Shown in pieces: positions 21,306 through 35,846 of a DNA stretch of 41,586 nt (position 1 is its first letter; every line of letters starts with the position of its first letter). Below the pieces are notes generated by a model. It worked only from the letters and a program-made list of their open reading frames with translations, was not told the origin of the DNA and made no database searches. The stretch covers positions 1 through 41,586 of IMG/VR virus record IMGVR_UViG_3300036820_000432; one strand, given 5' to 3'. The position numbers and the translations under genes were made by a program. Source of the DNA: a virus.

Positions 21306-21335
21306 TCGTGCAATCCGTGTGATGCGTGGTTTATC
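21301..21335. repeat. Family C element at a start codon
   Basis: GTCATTCGTGCAATCCGTG and TGATGCGTGGTTTA form a tandem-type repeat, also seen at 2756-2785, 26148-26172 and 33340-33370. It contains the start codon of the 20883-21305 gene. Confidence 0.7.
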
Positions 21336-23394
21336 CTCGTCCCCGGTCCGAAATCAAAAACGGCCGCCCGTCGGGCGTCGTGAAATGCACTCGCCCCTCG
21401 TCTCTCGCCCCTCGCCCCTGGCTCGCGCTCGCGAGCTGCACGTCGCGAGCTAGGATCGGCGCGCCGCGCGTGACAATGAGCATCGCCACGTAGGCCTGGC
21501 GTTCGCAGTCGCGATAATCGTTGGGGATGCTTTCGACGACGCGATCCCAAATCTCGTGGGTGCCATCCGGAGAAATGGTCGGGGCGTCGTTGAGCAGTTG
21601 CTCCAGATAATCCTGATGCTCCTGCAGGCTGCCGGCGAACAAGGAAAAACCGCCGGGATCGGCGCGCGCCAGCTCGTGCAGCACGCGGTCGATCCAGCCT
21701 TGGGTGCGCACGGTGTCGATCCAGAACAGCCGCATGCCGGGGGCGCTCGTGTCTTTGCCGAGCGTCGACTGCCGCCAGTCGGCGTTGAGCGAATTGCTCG
21801 AGCCCTTCGAGGGCCAGACCTGCAGCGGCGGCCGGCTGAGCAGGCAGGCGCGGGAGAATTCGTAGATGCCTTCGGGGCGGAAGCCGCTATCGACGAGCGT
21901 CATCGCCACGCGGAGCGGGGCTTTGCCGTCGGCGTGCGGCCAAGTGGGCTCGATCAAATGCTCGCGGATGTCGGCCAGCGACGGCGACAGGCCGTAGGCG
22001 ATCGCGGCCGAGCGACGGCCTTCTCCCCAGGCTTTGAGCACATACGGAAACCCGCGCTCCTGGCGATCGACGCCCAGCGTAAGAAGCGTCGACCAGGCCG
22101 GGCAGACGCCCGGCTTGAGATCGGGGTCGATCAAGCGTGCGCCGAGTTGCTCCCAGGATTGCTTGCGACTGCGGCGCTCCCAGGTTTCGGCGAGCCAGCC
22201 GTTGACGAAGTTTTGCAGCTCGGCCGGTTGATCCTTGGCGCGGACGAATTTCGCAGCGACGTCGCCGAAGCCGACGGAGAGCGCGCACAGCGAGCTGAGC
22301 TGATAGCCGGCGTCGGGGCCGTCGTTGGCCGGAGCGCCTTCGACCCAAGCGGCGTGGTTCCAGCCGCGCCATTCGTATTCGTCGCTGAGGAATCGCGGCA
22401 CCGTGGCGCCGGAATCACTGTCGCCGGCGACGGGCACGAGGTCGGTGAGCTCGAGCGCCTGCGCATCGATGACCGTGCAGCCTTCGGGGCACCACACGCC
22501 GCGGCGGAGCATCGGGGCGCGGTGATGGTCCCATATTTTCTCTGCGCAATGGCGGCAGAGGTAGTGGCCGGTGCGGCGGGCGATTTCTTTGTCGTGCGCG
22601 CCGGTAACCGTGACACGGTCCCAGCGGATGCCGCCAGGTGCATCGGGCTTGCCGAACACGAGCGGCTGGTAGCGCTGGCAATGCGGGCACGGGGCTTCGA
22701 AGCGGCAGTTGGTGCTCGCCAGGCGAAGCCGCTCGATGCGCGATTTGCCTTCGATCGTCGGCGTGCTGTCGAGCACTTTTTTGTGTGTGGGATAGTCCTT
22801 GAATCGCTCGAGGAACAATTCGAGCGGCTCGGCCTCGAGCGACGTGCTGAGGTAGACCCATTTGTCAATCTCGGTGCCATGGCCCCAGCGGATCGATTTG
22901 TCGGCCAGCGTGCTGACGCTACGCGGCCAGGCGACGTAGACGCGGCAGGCGCGGAGCACGATCTGCGTCTTGTGGCGCAGCCGCTCCGGCAGCAGTTGGC
23001 CGCGGAGGCGCGGATTGTGGCCGAGGCTTTGGTATTGCCGCTCGGTGATTTCAATGGCCAGCTTTTCGTCGGGCGCCACGAACATCATCGGCCCGGGTTG
23101 CGTGTCGGCCAGGAATTGCTGGGCCCAGGCGCCGAATTGCGTCTTGCCGCAGCGGCTGGCCCATTGCAGCGCGATCGTGCGCACCGACGGATCGTCGAGC
23201 GCGTCGCACGGGCCTCCGGGGGCGCCGAGGTAGGGATAGGCGCCGTGATCGAAGGGACGGCCGCGGTCGGTGTGGGCGTGGTCGCGCATCCAGCGAATCG
23301 AGCGAATGCGGGCGCGGGGCTCGAAATGGCGCACGGCGAGCGTGAACAGCGGGACGGCGTTTTTTCTAGGCGCGGGCTTTGGGGGAGTCTTCAT
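21331..23394 (-). CDS. Terminase large subunit (GpA-like)
   Basis: The ATG at 23394 (MKTPPKPAPRK) gives 687 residues. Residues 75-90 (LQWASRCGKTQFGAW) contain the Walker A loop. Cys pairs CPHC near residue 240 and CRHC near 285 are typical of the GpA family. The C-terminal nuclease domain begins near residue 425 (LLTLGVDRQERG) and contains VDSGFRPEGIYEF. This enzyme cuts concatemers and pumps DNA into the head. The last 40 residues contain a family A-derived stretch (SQGRGARDEGR). It lies directly after the small subunit. Confidence 0.9.
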   Translation of the reverse strand: MKTPPKPAPRKNAVPLFTLAVRHFEPRARIRSIRWMRDHAHTDRGRPFDHGAYPYLGAPGGPCDALDDPSVRTIALQWASRCGKTQFGAWAQQFLADTQPGPMMFVAPDEKLAIEITERQYQSLGHNPRLRGQLLPERLRHKTQIVLRACRVYVAWPRSVSTLADKSIRWGHGTEIDKWVYLSTSLEAEPLELFLERFKDYPTHKKVLDSTPTIEGKSRIERLRLASTNCRFEAPCPHCQRYQPLVFGKPDAPGGIRWDRVTVTGAHDKEIARRTGHYLCRHCAEKIWDHHRAPMLRRGVWCPEGCTVIDAQALELTDLVPVAGDSDSGATVPRFLSDEYEWRGWNHAAWVEGAPANDGPDAGYQLSSLCALSVGFGDVAAKFVRAKDQPAELQNFVNGWLAETWERRSRKQSWEQLGARLIDPDLKPGVCPAWSTLLTLGVDRQERGFPYVLKAWGEGRRSAAIAYGLSPSLADIREHLIEPTWPHADGKAPLRVAMTLVDSGFRPEGIYEFSRACLLSRPPLQVWPSKGSSNSLNADWRQSTLGKDTSAPGMRLFWIDTVRTQGWIDRVLHELARADPGGFSLFAGSLQEHQDYLEQLLNDAPTISPDGTHEIWDRVVESIPNDYRDCERQAYVAMLIVTRGAPILARDVQLASASQGRGARDEGRVHFTTPDGRPFLISDRGRG

Positions 23395-23444
23395 CGGGAG
23401 GGCGGCCGCAGCGATCAGGCCGGCGCCGAATGCGGCGACGAGCG

Positions 23445-24005
23445 TCAGGTCTCGGAATTGGGATCGAAGGTCCACGCGGACATTTCCTTGAGCACGAGGC
23501 GGAGCTTGTCGTCGATATCGCGCTTGACCACGGATCGCACGTCGGCCGGCAGGAGCATCTCGAGCTCGTCGGGCAATGCCTCGAGGCGCGCCTTCACGCG
23601 CAGACACAATTCGGCGAGCACGCGATCGGCGGCGTCGCGGCGGAGCAATTGACCTTCGGCCAGATCGTTCTTGAGCCGCTTCGCCCGGACTTCTTCGGCG
23701 CACTTCGCGCGCTGGAGGTCGGCGAGCGAAGGGCCGGCTGTTTCGCCGGGCGGCGGGACGACAGCACGCTTGGCGAGGTTGTCGGCCCGCCACTGCTGGA
23801 CCTCGGCGACGCTGCCGCGCGGGCAGCCGCGAGCGAAATAGTCTTCAAGCGTGCGCTTCGAGACGCCGACCTGCAGCGCGAAGTCGGCCAGATTCTTTGG
23901 AGCGGCGGCTCGCCGTTGCTTTTTCGCCGGTTTCTTGGGTCGTGTTTGGGGACCAATGGTCGGACCGATGATGATGAGGGCACAAATTTTTGTCTTCGCG
24001 TGCAA
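23445..24005 (-). CDS. Terminase small subunit (Nu1-like)
   Basis: This 186-residue protein has a helix-turn-helix near residues 38-60 (NLADFALQVGVSKRTLEDYF) followed by helical, charged segments (AEEVRAKRLKNDLAE, VLAELCLRVKARLEAL). The best start is a TTG at 24005, as no ATG occurs in frame upstream. Small subunits bind the packaging site and recruit the large subunit encoded next. Position directly before TerL confirms the call. Confidence 0.75.
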   Translation of the reverse strand: MHAKTKICALIIIGPTIGPQTRPKKPAKKQRRAAAPKNLADFALQVGVSKRTLEDYFARGCPRGSVAEVQQWRADNLAKRAVVPPPGETAGPSLADLQRAKCAEEVRAKRLKNDLAEGQLLRRDAADRVLAELCLRVKARLEALPDELEMLLPADVRSVVKRDIDDKLRLVLKEMSAWTFDPNSET

Positions 24006-24069: not shown

Positions 24070-24339
24070 TCAGGGTTTGGGGCGGCGAGGCGGAAGTGTC
24101 AGGGGCGGCTCCCCTTCCTCGCGGCCGAGCACGCGCATGTCGGCCCGCAGCTCGGCGATCTGGGCTGCCAGTCCATCTCCGCGAGCTTCCAGTGTCGAAA
24201 GCCGGCTGTCGACCGAGGTCGTAAACGACCAGATAGCGCCTACGGCCACGAAAAACTGCCCGGCCATCATCAACACAATGGCCACCCAGTTCGACGTCGT
24301 CAGTCGCACCCGTTGTGGCCGGCCCTCGTCGTACGTCAT
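24070..24339 (-). CDS. Small membrane protein, holin-like or Rz-like candidate
   Basis: This 89-residue protein has one transmembrane segment (NWVAIVLMMAGQFFVAVGAIW, about residues 17-37), then a short coiled coil (SRLSTLEARGDGLAAQ), and a Pro-rich tail. Phages often encode such proteins next to terminase as holins, spanins or accessory lysis factors. With one membrane helix and a periplasmic or cytoplasmic coiled coil, a class III-like holin or Rz-like protein is possible. No lysozyme or amidase is recognised in the window. Confidence 0.45.
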   Translation of the reverse strand: MTYDEGRPQRVRLTTSNWVAIVLMMAGQFFVAVGAIWSFTTSVDSRLSTLEARGDGLAAQIAELRADMRVLGREEGEPPLTLPPRRPKP

Positions 24340-24723: not shown

Positions 24724-25095
24724 CTACCGCCGCAACCGGCGAACGCGCGCCGCGCGCTCGCGCACGATTACCGGCGGCCGAATCGTAACTACCGGCGCGC
24801 TGAAAAACACGCCCGCCGCCGGCACGCTCGCATAGCCGGCCGACGGCTCAAGTACCGGCGGAAGATTCGCCCCCACGTCGTATTGCACGCCGTCGATCGA
24901 AAGCGCCGCGCCCGGCACGAAAAACCCTTCCGGCGTGAACAGCCGGAACCCGTTGCGCACGACGGCCGCATGCACCAAGCCGTCGCTGCCGACAAACGCC
25001 TCGCGATGAAACAACGCGCCCGCATCGGCCGGCGCAACGCAAAACGCCGCTCCCAAGCATGCCACCGCGATCACCGACTGCATGATTCCACGCAT
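24724..25095 (-). CDS. Small exported protein
   Basis: This 123-residue protein starts MRGIMQSVIAVACLGAAF, a signal peptide with cleavage expected near residue 25 (APADA-GAL). A strong GGAGA lies seven bases before the ATG at 25095. The mature part is beta-rich (LVHAAVVRNGFRLFTPEG) and ends in a basic Arg-rich tail. It is the first of three exported proteins before the protease gene, so it may act with them in the envelope. No family recognised. Confidence 0.6.
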   Translation of the reverse strand: MRGIMQSVIAVACLGAAFCVAPADAGALFHREAFVGSDGLVHAAVVRNGFRLFTPEGFFVPGAALSIDGVQYDVGANLPPVLEPSAGYASVPAAGVFFSAPVVTIRPPVIVRERAARVRRLRR

Positions 25096-25133: not shown

Positions 25134-26138
25134 TCAGCGCGCCGGCGCTACGGCCGCCAACACCGCCCGATATTGATACAGCGTTTCCTTGCTCCCGCGA
25201 TCGAGCGGCGCGCCGGCGCTGCCGTCCGCCTTGCGCGGCATCAGCTTGGCCGGATCGCTCGATTCGATACGATCCAGCAGGTGATCGAATTGCCCGAGGT
25301 CCATCGACGGCACGCCGGCAATCGCAAAGCCGCCACGCGGCTTATCGCCCGAATGGCAACTGGCGCATTTGAGCTGCACCTCGGCCATCATCGCCGTTTT
25401 CGGATCGCCCGCCGACGAAGGCACCGGCCCGGGCACGACGTTCAGCCGCCCGTCGTCGCCGACCTGCGCTTGAAACGAAAACGAGCGCTGGATCGTTTGC
25501 GGCGATTGCGGCTTGGTGGCATTGAGGGCCGCCGCGGCCGCGTTTCCCGTGGCCACGATTTTCGCCACCTCCAGTTGCGACGTCGTCAACTGTTGCACGG
25601 TGTCGTTGACGCCTTGAAAAGCTTTGCCAGCCAGCTCGTTTTGCTGCGATGCCAGCCGCACGGCCTGATTCAAGAATTGCGTGTAGTCGGGCGCATAGGC
25701 GGCGGCCCCGGCTTGATACGACTGCGGCGCGCCGTAGCTTGCGGTTTGGCTCGCATAACCATAGATCGTGCTCCCTTGGCCGGCGAGCGGTTGATAGCCG
25801 GCCAAAGGCACGGGCGCGGGCGAACTTGATCCGCCGGAAGCGGTGGGTACGAGCGGCTTGGGATAATACCATTGCCGCCAGCCGGTCGGGCTCGTGCGAT
25901 CGAGGATTGCTCCTTCGGCGTATTCGAGGCCGTCTTGCCAAAACGTCCCATCGGCATGCCGAACGATGACTTGGTTCGCCGCCAGATCGCCGACGGTCGG
26001 GGAGGCGTAAGCGCAGCCGCCGTAGTTGCAATAGCCATAGGAAGGCGAAGAACCGTAGAAACCGAACCCGTGCGCGCCGGCGATCGCCGGCACCAAGAGC
26101 GCGAGCAGCGCGGAGAGCGCGAACAAAAAATTTCGCAT
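25134..26138 (-). CDS. Exported protein with single CxxCH haem motif (cytochrome-like)
   Basis: The ATG at 26138 (MRNFLFALSALLALL) gives 334 residues and a clear signal peptide cleaved near AGA-HG (residue 22). The mature N-terminal half is rich in Tyr, Gly and Ser (GSSPSYGYCNYGGCAY), then helical. The C-terminal domain has the haem-binding CASCH at 258-262. A candidate distal ligand is Met300 in KLMPRKADGS, as in small c-type cytochromes of planctomycetes. Covalent haem would need a host cytochrome c maturation system in the periplasm-like space. Phage-borne cytochromes are very unusual. The role is unknown and could be redox or envelope-related. Confidence 0.6.
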   Translation of the reverse strand: MRNFLFALSALLALLVPAIAGAHGFGFYGSSPSYGYCNYGGCAYASPTVGDLAANQVIVRHADGTFWQDGLEYAEGAILDRTSPTGWRQWYYPKPLVPTASGGSSSPAPVPLAGYQPLAGQGSTIYGYASQTASYGAPQSYQAGAAAYAPDYTQFLNQAVRLASQQNELAGKAFQGVNDTVQQLTTSQLEVAKIVATGNAAAAALNATKPQSPQTIQRSFSFQAQVGDDGRLNVVPGPVPSSAGDPKTAMMAEVQLKCASCHSGDKPRGGFAIAGVPSMDLGQFDHLLDRIESSDPAKLMPRKADGSAGAPLDRGSKETLYQYRAVLAAVAPAR

Positions 26139-26147
26139 CGTTTGCCT

Positions 26148-26172
26148 CGTCATTCGTGTCATTCGTGGTTTG
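26148..26172. repeat. Family C element at a stop codon
   Basis: CGTCATTCGTGTCATTCGTG and GTTT at the end of the 26159-27919 gene. Its stop codon lies inside the element (TNHE then TGA). Confidence 0.7.
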
Positions 26173-27919
26173 TCGCTTCCGCCCGAAACGCCGCATCGCC
26201 ATAAACGGCTTCCCACTGAAACCGGTTCACGCTTTTGCCTTCTTTGAGCGCCGCGAGAATCGGATCCTCGGGCGATACCGGGGGCTCGCCGTCGCTATCG
26301 ACCACGGCCGCCAATGGTGGCCATAGGCGATTGAGTAGCGCGATGGCCATTTTGTCGTCCGGCGTCTGAAAACCGATCTCGAAGCAAGCCTGCCGCGGCG
26401 TTACCAGCGGGTAGCGATAATCGCCGTAGATGTGCGACAGTAGCTCGGCGGTGTCGGCCAGTTCGTGGCCGCCACTGGCCTTCCAGCTTGCCTCCTGGAA
26501 ATCATCGCGCCCGCGGGCCAGCGGCTTTTCGAAATTGCCGCCATACAATCCAGCCAGCAGTTGCACCTGCGCCGTGAGGTCCTTTCGATCGGCGAGCGCC
26601 AGATCGCCGAAGGCATTGAGGCTAGTGGCGAGGGGCGAGGGACGAGGGACGAGCAGCGACGCCACGTCATTCACCACCGGCTGTAGTTGGTCGTTCTTGC
26701 GATGGCAGCGGATGCAGCCGATCGCGCATTGCAGCCGCGCCGTGTGCGGCCGCGGCACCTCGTGATCTTGCACCACGTCGTCGGGCGCGCTGTCTTGCCT
26801 GCGACCATTCCCCGCGGCAAACAGGCCGTAGATCGGCAATCCGTTCGGCCGCACTCCAATGGCCTCGCGCGCCTTGTCGCGAAAATTGATCAGATTGCGA
26901 ATCGGGTCCGCCGCGGCGTCGACGTCGTCATCCGAGGGATCGTGCGTTTCGGTCGCCAAGCCGGCCGCGGTGCCGGGCCGCACCTGGTCGCTCGGCAAGA
27001 GATCGACGATCCGCGGCTTGCCGGTTACCTCGCTGCGAAACATCGCCACGCGATTCGCATTGGGCAGATCGCCCAGCTTGGCCCCCAGCTTCGCGAAAAA
27101 CTTTTGCTCCGCCGTTTTCTTGCTCGTCCCTCGTCGCTCGTCGCTCTGCTCGACGCCGGCGAAGTCGTAATACCGGCCGCCTTCGATCGTCGTCAGAATC
27201 ATCTTCAGAAACCAGTCCGCGCGCAGCACGGGCACGACGCTGACGCACTCGGCCTGCAATTCGCTCATCGCTTCGACACCGACGTGCGAACCGAACTCGA
27301 CGACGGTCTTGCCGTCGATCACGCGCGTCACGTGAAAATAAGGCTCGCCATGTTGCAGCGACCCGTACAGCTCGGCCAGCGACTGCGCCGAATCGTCGCC
27401 GGCCAGCTCGCGCAAGTTGATTCGTACCAGGATCGCGGGGACTTTCTGCGGCTCGGGGACTGCCCCATTTTGCGGACTCCGTGGAGCAAAAGGGGGCTGC
27501 CCCCCTCGCCCCGCCAGGAAGGCGTGAGGCATGAGGCTTGAGGCTTGAGGTACGAGGGGGCAGCGGACGATCACCTCGGATCGCGACACCGCGTCGTTGA
27601 CGCCCCAACCGACTGCGCCGGCCCAGGCTCGCGGATCGGCAGCCCAAGGCGGAATCCAGATATAGCGTATCCAGCGCCTGTCGCTCATCGGGAAAATCGT
27701 GCGCACGTCGCGCAAGGCAGCTCGCACGGCGTCGCGAGGAGTGGCCGCGGGAATAGGGACGAGGGGCGAGGGACGAGGGGCGAGCGAAGCAGGCGCGGGG
27801 ACGATCGGAGTCGGCGCTCGCGCGATGCTCGCGCCCTGCTCGGCGGGCGCCTGCGGACGGCCGGCGGTGGGCACGGTGAGGAGCATCAGGATTGCGAGGA
27901 GTAGAAAGAAGCGGCGCAA
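26159..27919 (-). CDS. Large exported CxxCH protein with four repeat-derived inserts
   Basis: This 586-residue protein starts MRRFFLLLAILMLLTV, a signal peptide cleaved near residue 20. A CIRCH motif at 402-406 (QCAIGCIRCHRKND) is a typical covalent haem site. Other conserved-looking parts are IRYIWIPPWAADP (84-96) and FEIGFQTPDDKM near the C-terminus. Four segments are repeat-derived: 43-56 (family A), 120-158 (family A variant, then family B), 257-271 (family A) and 420-433 (family A). These are in frame and not disruptive. It lies directly upstream of the other CxxCH gene and may form a complex with it. Confidence 0.6.
   Translation of the reverse strand: MRRFFLLLAILMLLTVPTAGRPQAPAEQGASIARAPTPIVPAPASLAPRPSPLVPIPAATPRDAVRAALRDVRTIFPMSDRRWIRYIWIPPWAADPRAWAGAVGWGVNDAVSRSEVIVRCPLVPQASSLMPHAFLAGRGGQPPFAPRSPQNGAVPEPQKVPAILVRINLRELAGDDSAQSLAELYGSLQHGEPYFHVTRVIDGKTVVEFGSHVGVEAMSELQAECVSVVPVLRADWFLKMILTTIEGGRYYDFAGVEQSDERRGTSKKTAEQKFFAKLGAKLGDLPNANRVAMFRSEVTGKPRIVDLLPSDQVRPGTAAGLATETHDPSDDDVDAAADPIRNLINFRDKAREAIGVRPNGLPIYGLFAAGNGRRQDSAPDDVVQDHEVPRPHTARLQCAIGCIRCHRKNDQLQPVVNDVASLLVPRPSPLATSLNAFGDLALADRKDLTAQVQLLAGLYGGNFEKPLARGRDDFQEASWKASGGHELADTAELLSHIYGDYRYPLVTPRQACFEIGFQTPDDKMAIALLNRLWPPLAAVVDSDGEPPVSPEDPILAALKEGKSVNRFQWEAVYGDAAFRAEATNHE
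27452..27509. repeat. Family B element inside the large CxxCH gene
   Basis: Diverged copy GGGGACTGCCCCATTTTGC, then GCAAAAGGGGGCTGCCCCC. It is translated as GRGGQPPFAPRSPQNGAVP. The adjacent AGGCTTGAGGCTTGAGG (27534-27550) is the family A variant also seen at 8071. Confidence 0.8.
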
Positions 27920-28071: not shown

Positions 28072-28965
28072 CTAATTGAGACCGCGCGCCCGCCGTGATT
28101 CTTTCAGCTTCCGGAACATGGCGCGCGTGGGAGACTGCTTGCGCGTCCCTCGCCCCTTCGCCGGCAGAGCCGGCATCGGCGCGGGAGAAGGCGTCGGACT
28201 CGGCGACACGTCGGCGGTCTGCAGTACCCAAAAGTCGCTCGCCAACCGTGCCGACGTGACGTAGGCATACGGCATGGCAAAATAACCGGCCATGCCCCAG
28301 CTCGCGCCCCACGAATTGCGGACGATGAATCGCTGCGTCGCGTTGCAGTAGCCGACCGCCAGCACGGCGTGCCCGCCGACGGCCGATTCGAACAGCCGCG
28401 GCATCGGGACAATGCCGGTCTCGGCCACCTGGTCGCTCTCGAACGAGCTATACACCGTGAAGCCGAACACGAACGGCTTTCCAGCGGCCAGGCTGGCCTG
28501 CAATTGGGCGAGCTGCTGCTGGGCCCGCTGGTAGCAGGCCACCTTATGCAGCAGGGCATTGCTACAGGCCTGCGGATCCGGCTCGACGGTCACTTCAGCG
28601 GGCACATAGGGCCAATCGCTTTCGGGCGGAGCGCCCAGATTGGCAGCCTGGCTGACCACGTCGCGAATCTGCGCTCCGGCGTCGGTCGACGTGTCCCCTT
28701 CGAGCGCGCGGCCGTTGTAATACAGAAACAGTCGCGAAGGGGTAAAGTCCGCGAGCCCTTGCGCCAGCCGATCGAACTCGATCGCTCCGGCCGTGGCGTT
28801 TCCCGTGCAACTGCCTATGTCCCCTTGGTCATAGACGGCCGGGCATTGCGGCCGCAGATCGACCGCATCCGGCAGCGTCAACAGCCGCCGCGGATGGATG
28901 GCCAACAGATGGTCGCGATGATCTGGCAGGTCGGGCTTCCAGCCGTAGCGGCGAGTGCTTCTCAT
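28072..28965 (-). CDS. Papain-like cysteine protease (C1A)
   Basis: This 297-residue protein has the papain triad. Gln47 and Cys53 lie in VYDQGDIGSCTGNATAG, His199 in AVGGHAVLAVGY and Asn217 in VRNSWGASWG. The N-terminal region LPDAVDLRPQC matches mature enzymes with no visible signal peptide or prodomain. The C-terminus is Pro/Ser-rich with basic residues and family A-derived sequence (PSPTPSPAPMPALP, KGRGTRK). In a phage this might degrade host envelope proteins, serve in lysis or process virion proteins. No conventional endolysin is seen nearby, so lysis is a reasonable guess. Confidence 0.75.
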   Translation of the reverse strand: MRSTRRYGWKPDLPDHRDHLLAIHPRRLLTLPDAVDLRPQCPAVYDQGDIGSCTGNATAGAIEFDRLAQGLADFTPSRLFLYYNGRALEGDTSTDAGAQIRDVVSQAANLGAPPESDWPYVPAEVTVEPDPQACSNALLHKVACYQRAQQQLAQLQASLAAGKPFVFGFTVYSSFESDQVAETGIVPMPRLFESAVGGHAVLAVGYCNATQRFIVRNSWGASWGMAGYFAMPYAYVTSARLASDFWVLQTADVSPSPTPSPAPMPALPAKGRGTRKQSPTRAMFRKLKESRRARGLN

Positions 28966-29067
28966 TAGGGGCGAGGGGTTAGGGACGAAGGAAGAAAAAA
29001 GAGCGTCGGGGATTGTCCCTTTTTGCGGAGTCCGCGGAGCAAAAGGGGACCGCTCCCCTCTGCCCTG
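28966..29067. repeat. Spacer with family A arm and family B element
   Basis: Family A (GGGGCGAGGGGTTAGGGACG, 28969-28988), then family B (29006-29060: TCGGGGATTGTCCC, TTTTGCGGAGTCCGCGGAGC and AAAAGGGGACCGCTCCCC). It lies between the CsrA gene and the protease gene. Confidence 0.8.
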
Positions 29068-29265
29068 CTATTCGGGCTCACTCGGAAAGAAGCTCGGCGG
29101 CGCCTGGGCTTCGATGGCCAAAAACACTTCCTCGCGGTGCACCGGCACTTCGCGCGGGGCGTCGATCCCGATTAGCACGCGATCGCCGCGGATTGTGACG
29201 ATCGTGAGCGTCACGTCGCGACCGATGCGTATCTTTTCGTCGCGCTTGCGCGAAAGCACGAGCAT
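29068..29265 (-). CDS. csrA: CsrA translational regulator, canonical
   Basis: The ATG at 29265 (MLVLSRKRDEKIRIG) gives 65 residues, the normal length for CsrA. Recognisable elements are Leu4 and Ser5 in LVLSRK, the LTIVTIRGDRVLIGI core and the APREVPVHREEV signature with the RNA-binding Arg44. CsrA dimers bind GGA motifs in mRNA leaders and regulate translation. An earlier ATG at 29301 would translate repeat DNA. The family B element directly upstream contains GGGGAC and stem-loops. A second, shorter-signature CsrA-like gene lies at 37245-37478. Confidence 0.85.
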   Translation of the reverse strand: MLVLSRKRDEKIRIGRDVTLTIVTIRGDRVLIGIDAPREVPVHREEVFLAIEAQAPPSFFPSEPE

Positions 29266-29347
29266 AGGGCCTCGGGGACTGTTGCGGAGTTCGCGGAGCA
29301 AAAGGGGACTGTCCCCTTCGCCCCGCGTGAGATGCCATTTTCGTCGT
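29266..29347. repeat. Family B element in the CsrA leader
   Basis: Copy at 29271-29325 with CTCGGGGACTGTTGCGG, then GAGCAAAAGGGGACTGTCCCC spread over 29297-29317. It lies immediately upstream of the csrA start, so it would be in the mRNA leader. Confidence 0.8.
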
Positions 29348-29596
29348 CTACGCCGTCGCCGGCTGCATCGACTTGATCAATGCCATGATCGCCTGGAGCA
29401 CGGCCGGCAGGTTCTGCAACAGGTTCGAAAGCGCGCCGGCGATCGCTTGCTCGGTCTTGCTGGCGGCGGCCGCGGCGTAGGCGCGGCACGAAGGTGCGGC
29501 GCCGGCCAACAGGTTTTCGATCGCCGTCACGAGGGCCTCGATCTGCGGCAACCGGGCGACGACCCAAGCCATCACGACATTCATAGACGCTCTCAT
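29348..29596 (-). CDS. Small hydrophobic/amphipathic protein
   Basis: The ATG at 29596 (MRASMNVVMAWVV) gives 82 residues. It shares ATGA with the upstream 29593-29823 stop, which supports this start over the ATG at 29584. Two amphipathic or hydrophobic helices (VARLPQIEALVTAIENLL and LSNLLQNLPAVLQAIMALI) could be membrane-associated, holin-like or form an oligomer. It is coupled to the upstream gene. Confidence 0.45.
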   Translation of the reverse strand: MRASMNVVMAWVVARLPQIEALVTAIENLLAGAAPSCRAYAAAAASKTEQAIAGALSNLLQNLPAVLQAIMALIKSMQPATA

Positions 29597-29823
29597 GTGG
29601 AAGAATTCGCCGGCGGGGGCTCGAGAAAGAGATCCTCGATAAACGCCAGCAACAGCGGGGAATACGAATCCAAAAGGCGCTTCACCTCGGCGACGTCGTT
29701 CGCGCCCAAGCCTCGTTTGGCCGCCTTCTCCAACAGCCCGGCGCGCAGCGACGCATAGGTCACCGTCACTTTGACTACCGGCGGCGCCGGCGCGGGAGCA
29801 GGATTGGGAGCGGGATCGGGCAC
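29593..29823 (-). CDS. Pro-rich N-terminus, helical small protein
   Basis: A GTG at 29823 starts PDPAPNPAPAPAPPVV, followed by TVTYASLRAGLLEKAAKRG and VKRLLDSYSPLLLAFIEDLF. This gives 76 residues, partly hydrophobic. The stop TGA overlaps the next gene's ATG. Start assignment is tentative, because the upstream frame is long but is shadow sequence through repeat DNA. Confidence 0.4.
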   Translation of the reverse strand: MPDPAPNPAPAPAPPVVKVTVTYASLRAGLLEKAAKRGLGANDVAEVKRLLDSYSPLLLAFIEDLFLEPPPANSST

Positions 29824-29897
29824 GGGGCAACGGGCCAGGGGCGAGGGACGAGGGAAGCAAGTGCGAACACTATACGCGCTCGCGGCGCGCGTCCACT
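29824..29897. repeat. Family A arm spacer
   Basis: Plus strand GGGCCAGGGGCGAGGGACGA (29829-29848) and CACTCGCCCCTCGCC (29889-29903) flank an ATACGCGCTCGCGGCGCGCG block. It lies between the GNAT gene and the small protein gene. Confidence 0.65.
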
Positions 29898-30422: not shown

Positions 30423-30574
30423 GGAGAAAGGGGTGGGGGTGAGGGTGAGGGGTTAGGTAAGGACGCGCGAGGCGGCGGCGTCCCGGGGGCTGTCCCCTTT
30501 TGCGGCATTCCGGGGCCGGCCCCCTTTTGCGGCGTCCGCGGAGCAAAAGGGGGCTGCCCCCCCTTGCTTGCACG
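30423..30574. repeat. Spacer with family A arm and two fused family B elements
   Basis: Family A arm GGTGAGGGTGAGGGG, then 30484-30566 with CTGTCCCCTTTTGCGG, GGCCGGCCCCCTTTTGCGG and GCAAAAGGGGGCTGCCCCC. Two copies are fused or nested. It lies between the zinc-ribbon gene and the GNAT gene. Confidence 0.8.
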
Positions 30575-33368: not shown

Positions 33369-35846
33369 TTACTTTTTTTTCTTCCTCGTCCCCCGTCCCT
33401 CGTCCCTTCCCCCTAGCTCCTTCGGCAGCCTCGACTTCGTCTCCGGCGCTGCGACCAATTGCGTGATGATCGTCTCCTTCGACTTCGCCCCGTCGACAAA
33501 TACGTTCAGCTCGCCGGCCAGTTCGAGGAGCTGCTCTTTTGTGCGGAGCGCGAAATAGCCGCGCGTCATCTTGCCGGCCAGGCGCCGCTTCCATTCGGCT
33601 GCGGGATCGACGCCCGCCAGCAAGAGCGCCGCCGCAATCTCATCCTCGTCGTCGATATACAGACGGCCGCGTTGCGCCGGGTCGAGCGAACGCAGCATCG
33701 CGTCCTTCGCCAGCGCCACCGGTTTTTTTGCCGCCAGAATCGCCTCGGCGACCCAGGCCGATGCGTTGGTCGGCTTCTTGCAGCCGACCGCTTTGGCGAA
33801 GAGAACGCGCTCCACCAAGGGGCTTTCCACGGCCATGAACAGCAGCAGCCGGAGCGTCAAGTCGTCGCCGCGCGCCGTTTTCAGTCGCTCGACCAGCAGC
33901 GTGCGCCACCAGTTCACGCGCCACCCTCTCACGCGCCACTCGAGGCCATCGGCCGTCAACTGCTTCGCCCCCCCGGCGCAGACGTCGTGTTGCGACGCCT
34001 TGGGCGCCTTCGGCTCCGGGAGCGTCTTGACGAATTGCGCCTGCAAGCTGTCGAATAGCTTCGTGTTGTAGGCGAAGGTCGCTTTCGAATCGTCCCAATC
34101 CTCGATCTCGATCAAATCGAGTTTCGCCGCCTGCTCCGGCGTCGGCGTGAAGACCGGCACGCGCCGCCCGCGGTCGTAGACGTCGCCGCCAAGACGCCTG
34201 CAATGGAGCCGCACCACGCCGGCGATGGCCTCGCGAAACTCGACCAGCGCGCCGAGTTTCCCTCTTTCCTTGCCGTCGTAATCCTCGCGCTTGACCCACT
34301 CGGCGAGCTCCTTCACGATCTTCGGGTACTTCGCGACGCGCAAAAACTCCTTGGCGTGGCTGGAGCTCATTTCGCGCGAAATAACTTTTCGACGCCATTC
34401 CTCGGGCAGCTCCAACAGCCGCACCGCGTTGGCCACGTAAGCCTGGCTGCGGCCGAGTTTTTTGCCGAGGGCTTCTTGGGTGACCCCGGTCTCTTGCAAC
34501 ACGCGGGCATACGCGGTCGCCCGCTCGATCGGGTTGAGGTCCTCGCGCTGGTCGTTGGCTACGATCGCCATCTCCGCCATCTCCGCATCGCTCACCTCTC
34601 GCACGACGGCCGTGAGATATTCCAGCTTCTTGAGCCGGGCCGCCCGCAGCCGCCGCTCGCCGTCGACGAGCTGGTAATGCACCCCGTGCAGCTCGCAAGC
34701 TTTCGGCGCCGGCCGCACGATGACCGGCTGAAGCTGTCCTTGAGCGACAAGAGAATCGCCGAGCGAATCGAGGATGGCCTCGTCGAAGTCGCGCCGCGGC
34801 TGCCACGGATTGGGCCCGATCGATTCGACCGCGATCGCGCGCAACGACAGCGGCCGCGTGTCGGGGCTCGCCGTCTCTTCGCTCGCCCCTCGCCAAGCAT
34901 CCGGGGCCCGCGCCTCCGGATCGAGCGCCGCGATCCCGTCCGGCAACGTCGTGCTCGCCCCGCCGGCGACGGCCGCCTTGTGGAGCGCCGCGCGCTGTTT
35001 CTTGGTGAGCGGCGCGGCGCGGCCGGCCCGCAGCATGCTCGCCGGCGTCGCCTCGCGGCGGCCATCGGCGCCCCTCCCCTCCGACGTCTCGTCTTCCCGC
35101 GCCCCTAATCCCTCACCCTCACCCTCACCCCCGCTTTCGATCAGCTCCCATTGCGCGTCGAGCACTTCTTCCCAGGGGATGATCGGATCGCCCACGTCGC
35201 CGCCGACGCGCAGCCCGGGCGCCGTGCCGTGCAGCCGCGGCAATCCGGCGTAGGTCGCATCGTCGAACGTAACGGGCCCGCGAATCTTGATGAGCATCTG
35301 AATCGCGTCGAGGTAATACGCGCAAAGCGCCAACTCGCGCTTCCAACGCTCGAGCGCCCAAAAGCGCTCGATGGCCGCGAACTTGTCGACCAAGGAGAGG
35401 CTCGAGACTTGAGACGGTGCGCCTTGAGGATGCGAAGCGTCCGCCTCCTTCGTCGCCCCTAACCCGTCGCCCTCAACCTTGCTCGGCCCGTCGAATGTCC
35501 GCCCGCACAATCGCCCCGCCTCATCGAGCACGTCGTCCCACGGAATCGTGCGCACGACCGTGCTGATCGGATGGCCGGCGTCGATGATCTTGATCCCCTC
35601 GGGCTCGGCGTAGGCGCGCGCGTCGCCGGCGAGCTTCGGCCTGCGGCGCCATTGCGTGATCCGCAGGCACCTGAGCGCCTCGGCGCGCGAACCGCAGGCC
35701 GCCAGCAGGCCCCCGGAGCCATCGGCCAAGAACTCCACGATGATGCGCCCGATCTGCGCGTCGTCGAGCGGCATCGCCGCGTCCGCCTTCTTACTCGCCC
35801 GTCGCCCCTGGCCCCGCGCCCCTTTGCTTTTCGTCGCCGTCGCCAT
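33369..35846 (-). CDS. Very large ParB-like protein
   Basis: This 825-residue protein has a strong AAGGAG six to seven bases before the ATG at 35846. Two N-terminal regions (to about 235) contain IPWDDVLDEAGRL and IPWEEVLDAQWEL, which look like repeats of one another. A ParB N-terminal domain with the GERR box lies at 396-399 (LVDGERRLRAARLKK). A helix-turn-helix follows at about 455-475 (TQEALGKKLGRSQAYVANAV). The remainder is helical, and the C-terminal 20 residues come from R2. ParB proteins bind parS sites, slide as clamps and can use CTP. Several repeat-derived inserts interrupt it (240-265, 120-140). Its own site could be the 14-bp palindrome, as a hypothesis. Confidence 0.75.
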   Translation of the reverse strand: MATATKSKGARGQGRRASKKADAAMPLDDAQIGRIIVEFLADGSGGLLAACGSRAEALRCLRITQWRRRPKLAGDARAYAEPEGIKIIDAGHPISTVVRTIPWDDVLDEAGRLCGRTFDGPSKVEGDGLGATKEADASHPQGAPSQVSSLSLVDKFAAIERFWALERWKRELALCAYYLDAIQMLIKIRGPVTFDDATYAGLPRLHGTAPGLRVGGDVGDPIIPWEEVLDAQWELIESGGEGEGEGLGAREDETSEGRGADGRREATPASMLRAGRAAPLTKKQRAALHKAAVAGGASTTLPDGIAALDPEARAPDAWRGASEETASPDTRPLSLRAIAVESIGPNPWQPRRDFDEAILDSLGDSLVAQGQLQPVIVRPAPKACELHGVHYQLVDGERRLRAARLKKLEYLTAVVREVSDAEMAEMAIVANDQREDLNPIERATAYARVLQETGVTQEALGKKLGRSQAYVANAVRLLELPEEWRRKVISREMSSSHAKEFLRVAKYPKIVKELAEWVKREDYDGKERGKLGALVEFREAIAGVVRLHCRRLGGDVYDRGRRVPVFTPTPEQAAKLDLIEIEDWDDSKATFAYNTKLFDSLQAQFVKTLPEPKAPKASQHDVCAGGAKQLTADGLEWRVRGWRVNWWRTLLVERLKTARGDDLTLRLLLFMAVESPLVERVLFAKAVGCKKPTNASAWVAEAILAAKKPVALAKDAMLRSLDPAQRGRLYIDDEDEIAAALLLAGVDPAAEWKRRLAGKMTRGYFALRTKEQLLELAGELNVFVDGAKSKETIITQLVAAPETKSRLPKELGGRDEGRGTRKKKK
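33395..33455. repeat. Direct repeat R2, right copy (61 bp)
   Basis: Second copy of the repeat at 32375-32435, in the 3' end of the ParB-like gene and including its C-terminal tail coding region. Confidence 0.9.
34369..34382. promoter_or_regulatory. 14-bp palindrome, copy 6 (perfect, inside parB-like gene)
   Basis: ATTTCGCGCGAAAT is a perfect palindrome in the coding sequence of the ParB-like protein just after the helix-turn-helix region, at the codons for VISRE. Confidence 0.6.

Follow-up and report, generated by a model that had tools for sequence, protein, structure and literature searches.

Two neighbouring genes on the minus strand of a virus record, here named A (25134..26216) and B (26159..27919), probably encode a pair of predicted haem proteins that are exported, bind their haem covalently and act together. 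The DNA analysed, called the window throughout, is the whole IMG/VR virus record IMGVR_UViG_3300036820_000432 (41,586 bases). Judged from sequence comparison, A and B appear to be a genuine, long-lived and phage-specific pair of exported proteins. The original prediction had regarded them as functional cargo of the phage: conservation, pairing, export signals and phage location all speak for an exported covalent-haem pair, with a function that can be proposed.

Both open reading frames were found on the minus strand where they had been predicted and begin with a hydrophobic export signal, as does a small protein encoded at 24724..25095 (minus strand), on the downstream side of A (Y position); all these signals were recognised by hydropathy only. 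Among the window ORFs of at least 100 aa, the CxxCH motif occurs only twice, once in A and once in B. In protein B it is CIRCH at residues 402-406, as first read. In protein A it is CASCH, for which the predicted position (258-262) is right when counted from the start at 26138 (MRNFLFALSALLALLVPAIAGA), the probable translation start, and corresponds to residues 284-288 of the 360-aa ORF. A chance occurrence was ruled out both by the expectation calculated from the Cys and His frequencies of the window (about 0.008 CxxCH per 950 residues) and by conservation in homologues, the motif being invariant in 25/25 A and 57/57 B sequences.

Following transcription along the minus strand, the gene order is papain-family protease, B, A, small exported protein and small HTH protein, then a holin-like protein with one transmembrane segment, the small terminase and a GpA-type large terminase. 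The terminase large subunit (21331..23793, minus strand) is supported by Pfam GpA_ATPase (1.1e-38), GpA_nuclease (2.3e-32) and phrog_15 (6.7e-76); its real start is probably nearer 23445 than the ORF start, because the ORF overlaps the small-terminase gene (23445-24005). The holin-like assignment (24070..24339, minus strand), between the cassette and the terminase, is weak, with a Phage_holin_Dp1 match below the Pfam cut-off (E 0.068). The window also has matches to families of portal, head maturation protease, major head protein and tail sheath, and so probably belongs to a contractile-tailed phage. The distance between the A-B pair and the terminase large subunit is 2-6 kb, and the genes for portal, head protease, major head protein and tail sheath are close by. 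Several other features of the window were recorded. A CsrA-family RNA-binding regulator (29068-29301, minus strand; Pfam CsrA E 2e-21) adjoins the papain-B-A cassette, and an 825-aa protein encoded at 33369-35846 (minus strand) contains ParB N-terminal (Pfam ParB_N 1.9e-22) and HTH domains in the middle of its chain. Two dispersed repeat families, one of 60 nt in four copies and one of 42 nt in five, include copies at 26607-26648, 27453-27512, 27738-27793, 28950-28991, 29006-29065, 29265-29324, 29813-29854 and 30510-30569; those within gene B roughly coincide with low-confidence segments of its model and with stretches that relatives lack, as if they had been inserted in frame.

Protein A consists of a signal peptide, a long low-complexity chain and a terminal c-type cytochrome domain, and was annotated as a predicted exported mono-haem c-type cytochrome with Met 326 as distal ligand. 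At a threshold of 92% of rows, an alignment of the phage and prophage copies has no conserved columns but C, C, H, M and P, all of them present in 25/25; A therefore reads as a His/Met cytochrome c, since these residues form its ligand set. The distal Met, described beforehand as plausible, lies in LMPRK in the window. The search against cytochrome c families proposed in the original prediction covered 13 relatives, of which eight match Cytochrome_CBB3 (PF13442; lowest E 2.8e-8) and three PSCyt1, the window copy alone remaining below the Pfam cut-off (PSCyt1 E 0.012). The A profile also matches solved cytochromes c, including a bc1 cytochrome c subunit in PDB (E 8.9e-6). As a cytochrome domain A is unremarkable: it shares CxxCH, the distal Met-Pro and a C-terminal helix pattern with the class I and cbb3-type domains (PF13442, PF00034, PF07635 PSCyt1), and differs from them in being phage-encoded and in closing a long exported chain of low complexity. 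The hydrophobic N-terminal signal, by hydropathy only, is found in the A of relatives as well as in that of the window. In several relatives A is followed by an exported low-complexity protein, in the position that the 24724-25095 protein takes in the window. The predicted model of A is mostly disordered (pLDDT 49.4), and a structure search with this low-confidence model gave no match.

Protein B, annotated as a predicted exported haem-c protein, matches no known cytochrome family at the level of sequence. Pfam has no family for it, and PF16694 (cytochrome P460) was missing both from the matches of the window copy and from the first 25 families listed for 20 relatives. The conservation of B is nevertheless precise. 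In window numbering, C402, C405, H406, Y250, D327 and E352 are present in 57/57 phage and bacterial sequences, and N108, R233, D235, S296, R303 and N359 in 56/57. The haem of B may lack a protein ligand on one side, because neither a Met nor a further His is invariant in the 57 sequences. Structure prediction of the CxxCH domains, proposed as a check, was poor for A (pLDDT 49) and good for B (AF2, pLDDT 79.8, pTM 0.80). Foldseek found nothing significant for the B model in PDB and BFVD. When 998 chains were realigned with VIA-align 2, the best was cytochrome P460 6hiu (Z 5.0, 116 residues, rmsd 3.9), a score under the caution level of this program, where Z < 8 may reflect a common fold arrangement; the next chain scored Z 2.6. 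The matched span covers residues 251-423 of the B model and contains the CxxCH near the domain end, so that a P460/c'-beta-like domain is predicted at about 250-425. Given this predicted model, it seems hard to ascribe to chance that the lone outstanding match is an open-haem CxxCH protein.

The comparison with the cytochrome P460/c'-beta superfamily (PF16694; 6hiu) is nonetheless a partial one. What is shared is the match over the CxxCH region and the lack of a conserved Met or extra His, and B carries invariant or near-invariant Arg, Asp and Glu before its CxxCH. McP460 possesses a capping Arg, a cross-linking Lys and a distal carboxylate (PMC11928373), and we infer that B Arg303, Asp327 and Glu352, whose order resembles that of the McP460 residues, might be their counterparts. 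In contrast to the superfamily, B is about four times longer, shows no invariant Lys before CxxCH that could form the P460 cross-link, either in 20 relatives or in the 57 sequences, and its homology is undetectable past the motif, with a modest Z. Sequence did not place B in PF16694, as the hhalign alignment (probability 22%) aligned little beyond the CxxCH region and does not extend past the motif.

Relatives of the pair were recovered by alignment-based scans; when viral contigs were searched with a single sequence of A, B or the terminase, there were no matches, and the PDB sequence search with two-sequence profiles gave only noise. A tblastn search with B reached the huge phage LR756511.1 (E 2e-7), where the order is papain, small helical gene, B (CIVCH), A (CAQCH and MPP) and a low-complexity exported protein. 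Small helical proteins also adjoin the protease or B in relatives; the one near the window cassette (29348..29860, minus strand) was listed on position and character only, sequence similarity to that of LR756511.1 being undetectable. Altogether, B is carried by 16 distinct virus records, including the window and LR756511.1 (two near copies are extra), and phage-type copies occur in 17 Planctomycetota assemblies, which does not bear out the initial view that cytochrome-like genes are extremely rare in phages. The carriers, many of them unrelated to each other, comprise a 595 kb huge phage, a 343 kb contig, phage contigs of 40-100 kb and planctomycete prophages. In all 14 virus records with downstream sequence, B is directly followed by an A that carries CxxCH and Met-Pro; in one record B itself is cut, and in another A is cut before the motif. 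Terminase large subunits, of two families, are present in 8/16 virus records.

Among cellular genomes, B was found in 12/392 Planctomycetota genomes. One of them, G389, contains a phage-type B that stands alone; its neighbours are a subtilisin, a ParB-like gene and, identified by eye, genes for the small and large terminase, the portal and the head protease. A is missing from this prophage, and a low-complexity tail closes its B. In the class of G389, B homologues occur in 137/398 genomes, for the most part within long open frames; another 16 phage-type copies from this class were examined. B keeps its CxxCH in all 16. The search for the pair in other planctomycete prophages, suggested at the outset, was successful: A with CxxCH and Met-Pro follows B in 11 of the 14 further loci with downstream sequence, A being undetected in 5/16, two of which stop at a contig edge. 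Eight of the 16 have terminases 57-71% identical to that of G389, with the terminase large subunit within about 6 kb. These loci fit integrated prophages, since some of the contigs are large (9.4 Mb, 0.9 Mb). In an unrooted tree of 41 B domains, the 16 phage copies fall on one side and the sampled bacterial ones on the other (SH-aLRT 99), with one label change against a shuffled mean of 12.8. Such a phage-only clade points to an old phage family and not to a recent capture from hosts. That the region could be host DNA beside a degraded prophage, the situation that would have undermined the original prediction, was ruled out by this clade and by the closeness of packaging and structural genes.

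The papain-family (C1) protease upstream of B (28072..28965, minus strand; Pfam Peptidase_C1 E 1.1e-16), already noticed beside the pair, has no signal peptide by hydropathy and is 54% identical to the protease of LR756511.1. The slot directly upstream of phage B is occupied by four unrelated peptidase families: C1 papain in the window, LR756511.1, L025, L027, L033 and L029, S8 subtilisin in L035, L039 and prophage G389, M10 matrixin in L030 and L037, and M12A astacin in L031. A slot protease is present in 11/14 informative virus records, the copies of LR756511.1, L025 and L027 being below the Pfam cut-off and called by similarity to other copies, and in 13/17 prophage-type loci (G389 included). 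Three virus records (L026, L028, L032) have upstream sequence and no slot protease, and two others are cut. In the 16 virus records S8 occurs only in the slot, once in each of L035 and L039; M10 matches are in or next to the slot, save one weak extra match in the record of L037, and C1 has extra copies outside it in some records. In the 16 further prophage-type loci, active-site motifs indicate an upstream S8 in nine, an upstream metzincin in three (one of these genes overlaps the open frame of B at its start), a papain on the downstream side of B in one and no protease in three. Protease calls in virus and prophage loci rest on such motifs, with ten genes checked by Pfam: seven gave peptidase matches (S8 three times, M10 twice, M12A and C1), the L029 gene showed intein domains where its papain active-site Cys lies, and L025 and L012 were without a match at the limit used. 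The intein of the papain-like protease of L029 (L029:4639-6552) directly follows the active-site Cys (Intein_splicing, Hint, LAGLIDADG). Another apparent intein was seen, reading the translation by eye, in a ThyX-type thymidylate-synthase-like gene (L012:15464-17443, minus strand). Finally, an exported Ig-like protein, X (L003:35927-36682 and relatives), for which there is no Pfam family, is conserved in 8 virus records on the upstream side of either B or the protease.

Nearly all cellular homologues unite the two parts in a single chain, an A-like CxxCH domain coming first and the B domain second; the exceptions, which show only B's motif, are the Isosphaeraceae copy L017 and L056, both cut at the contig start. 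The fusion of A and B in bacteria and their adjacency in phages are good evidence that they act together. These bacterial fusions (Planctomycetota and Alphaproteobacteria; for instance WP_227705619.1, annotated as a c-type cytochrome) thus have the same two CxxCH domains as the phage pair and often lie near proteases. They differ from it in forming a single chain in which A comes first and which often includes WD40 or DUF4384 parts, in belonging to a separate clade of B, and in having caspase-fold or trypsin neighbours instead of C1, S8 or M10. In several planctomycete and alphaproteobacterial lineages the neighbours are caspase C14, CHAT or trypsin genes, some with WD40 (L005, L013, L016, L017, L019, L023, L105, L107, L111, L113). 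This bacterial association of haem protein and protease is apparently undescribed so far. In Fimbriiglobus (L018:4019-6853), an A-like CxxCH domain, the B domain and WD40 repeats are joined in a single chain.

We propose the following mechanism. A and B would be made in the host and exported by Sec, and the host's own cytochrome c maturation would load haem onto them. A would act as a small His/Met-ligated cytochrome c domain passing electrons to or from the open haem of B. B, with its haem c in a P460/cytochrome c'-beta-like domain, would probably bind or turn over a small ligand, for which NO, peroxide or another small molecule are candidates. Together with the protease, the pair may act at the host envelope late in infection.

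No single biological role rises above a tentative suggestion. The pair could tentatively be assigned to egress, the protease doing the work of an endolysin on the protein-rich envelope of planctomycetes and changing from one family to another, as is common among endolysins; it is likewise conceivable, at that same tentative level, that the exported haem proteins help to open, weaken or time the breakdown of the envelope or of the proton-motive force. The cassette adjoins packaging or tail genes in many phages, the proteases are without signals whereas B, A and their neighbours have them, and a related C1 peptidase of an Alicyclobacillus phage is annotated as an endolysin. No endolysin was found among the 41 window ORFs scanned with PHROGs, from which a divergent one could escape, and a holin-like gene is near the cassette, although its weak match is below the cut-off; moreover, three virus records lack the upstream protease. 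We consider it rather doubtful that A and B serve auxiliary metabolism or protection, during infection or lysogeny, by feeding the host respiratory chain or removing periplasmic NO or peroxide and so prolonging the host's energy supply. The electron-carrier signature of A would suit such a role, as would the likeness of B to the P460/c'-beta superfamily, whose members bind NO, oxidise hydroxylamine or are peroxidase-like (PMC11928373), and redox genes are known in phage copies (PMC8190135). This role leaves the steady protease partner unexplained, however, and the phage copies form their own deep clade, unlike recent host captures.

The neighbours and fusion partners of the cellular A-B proteins (caspase, CHAT, trypsin and WD40, in Planctomycetota and Alphaproteobacteria) and the frequency of B homologues in one planctomycete class evoke instead a module of host control or immunity, in which the phage set would mimic, hijack or block a system of regulated proteolysis or of cell death, or protect the lysogen. 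We regard this as unlikely; several planctomycete loci have no such neighbour among the genes scanned. It is highly improbable that the CxxCH of either protein serves to bind a structural metal or to form a disulfide instead of attaching haem. Such a reading is compatible with the missing sequence-level match of B to cytochrome families, but A combines C, C and H with the distal Met-Pro and cytochrome Pfam matches, the P460 match of B contains its CxxCH, and both proteins carry export signals. Returning to the covalent-haem pair, we see a real possibility, held with less than even confidence, that planctomycete phages carry a distinct protease-haem system in which an exported electron-transfer pair and an interchangeable protease would form a redox-controlled weapon or switch. 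Its target might, with a confidence equally short of even, be the host envelope or host proteolytic signalling, bacteria holding a one-chain form of the system beside caspase-like proteases.

Cytochrome c-type proteins have already been reported on viral contigs: the phage-borne soxD sulfane dehydrogenase subunits are cytochrome c-containing, occur on only two contigs and have their cytochrome motifs missing (PMC8190135). Unlike A and B, phage soxD is part of Sox sulfur oxidation and has neither a protease nor a B-like partner. The literature consulted, covering few subscription papers and preprints, describes neither a conserved A-B pair in phages nor domain B, nor its association with proteases. 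As far as we found, a dedicated c-type haem pair kept by phages over long evolution was not previously known, and B represents a domain outside Pfam. The pairing with unrelated proteases, along with the bacterial fusions beside caspase-like proteases, offers a testable link between redox haem and proteolysis when phages infect planctomycetes, a phylum of which few phages have been studied.
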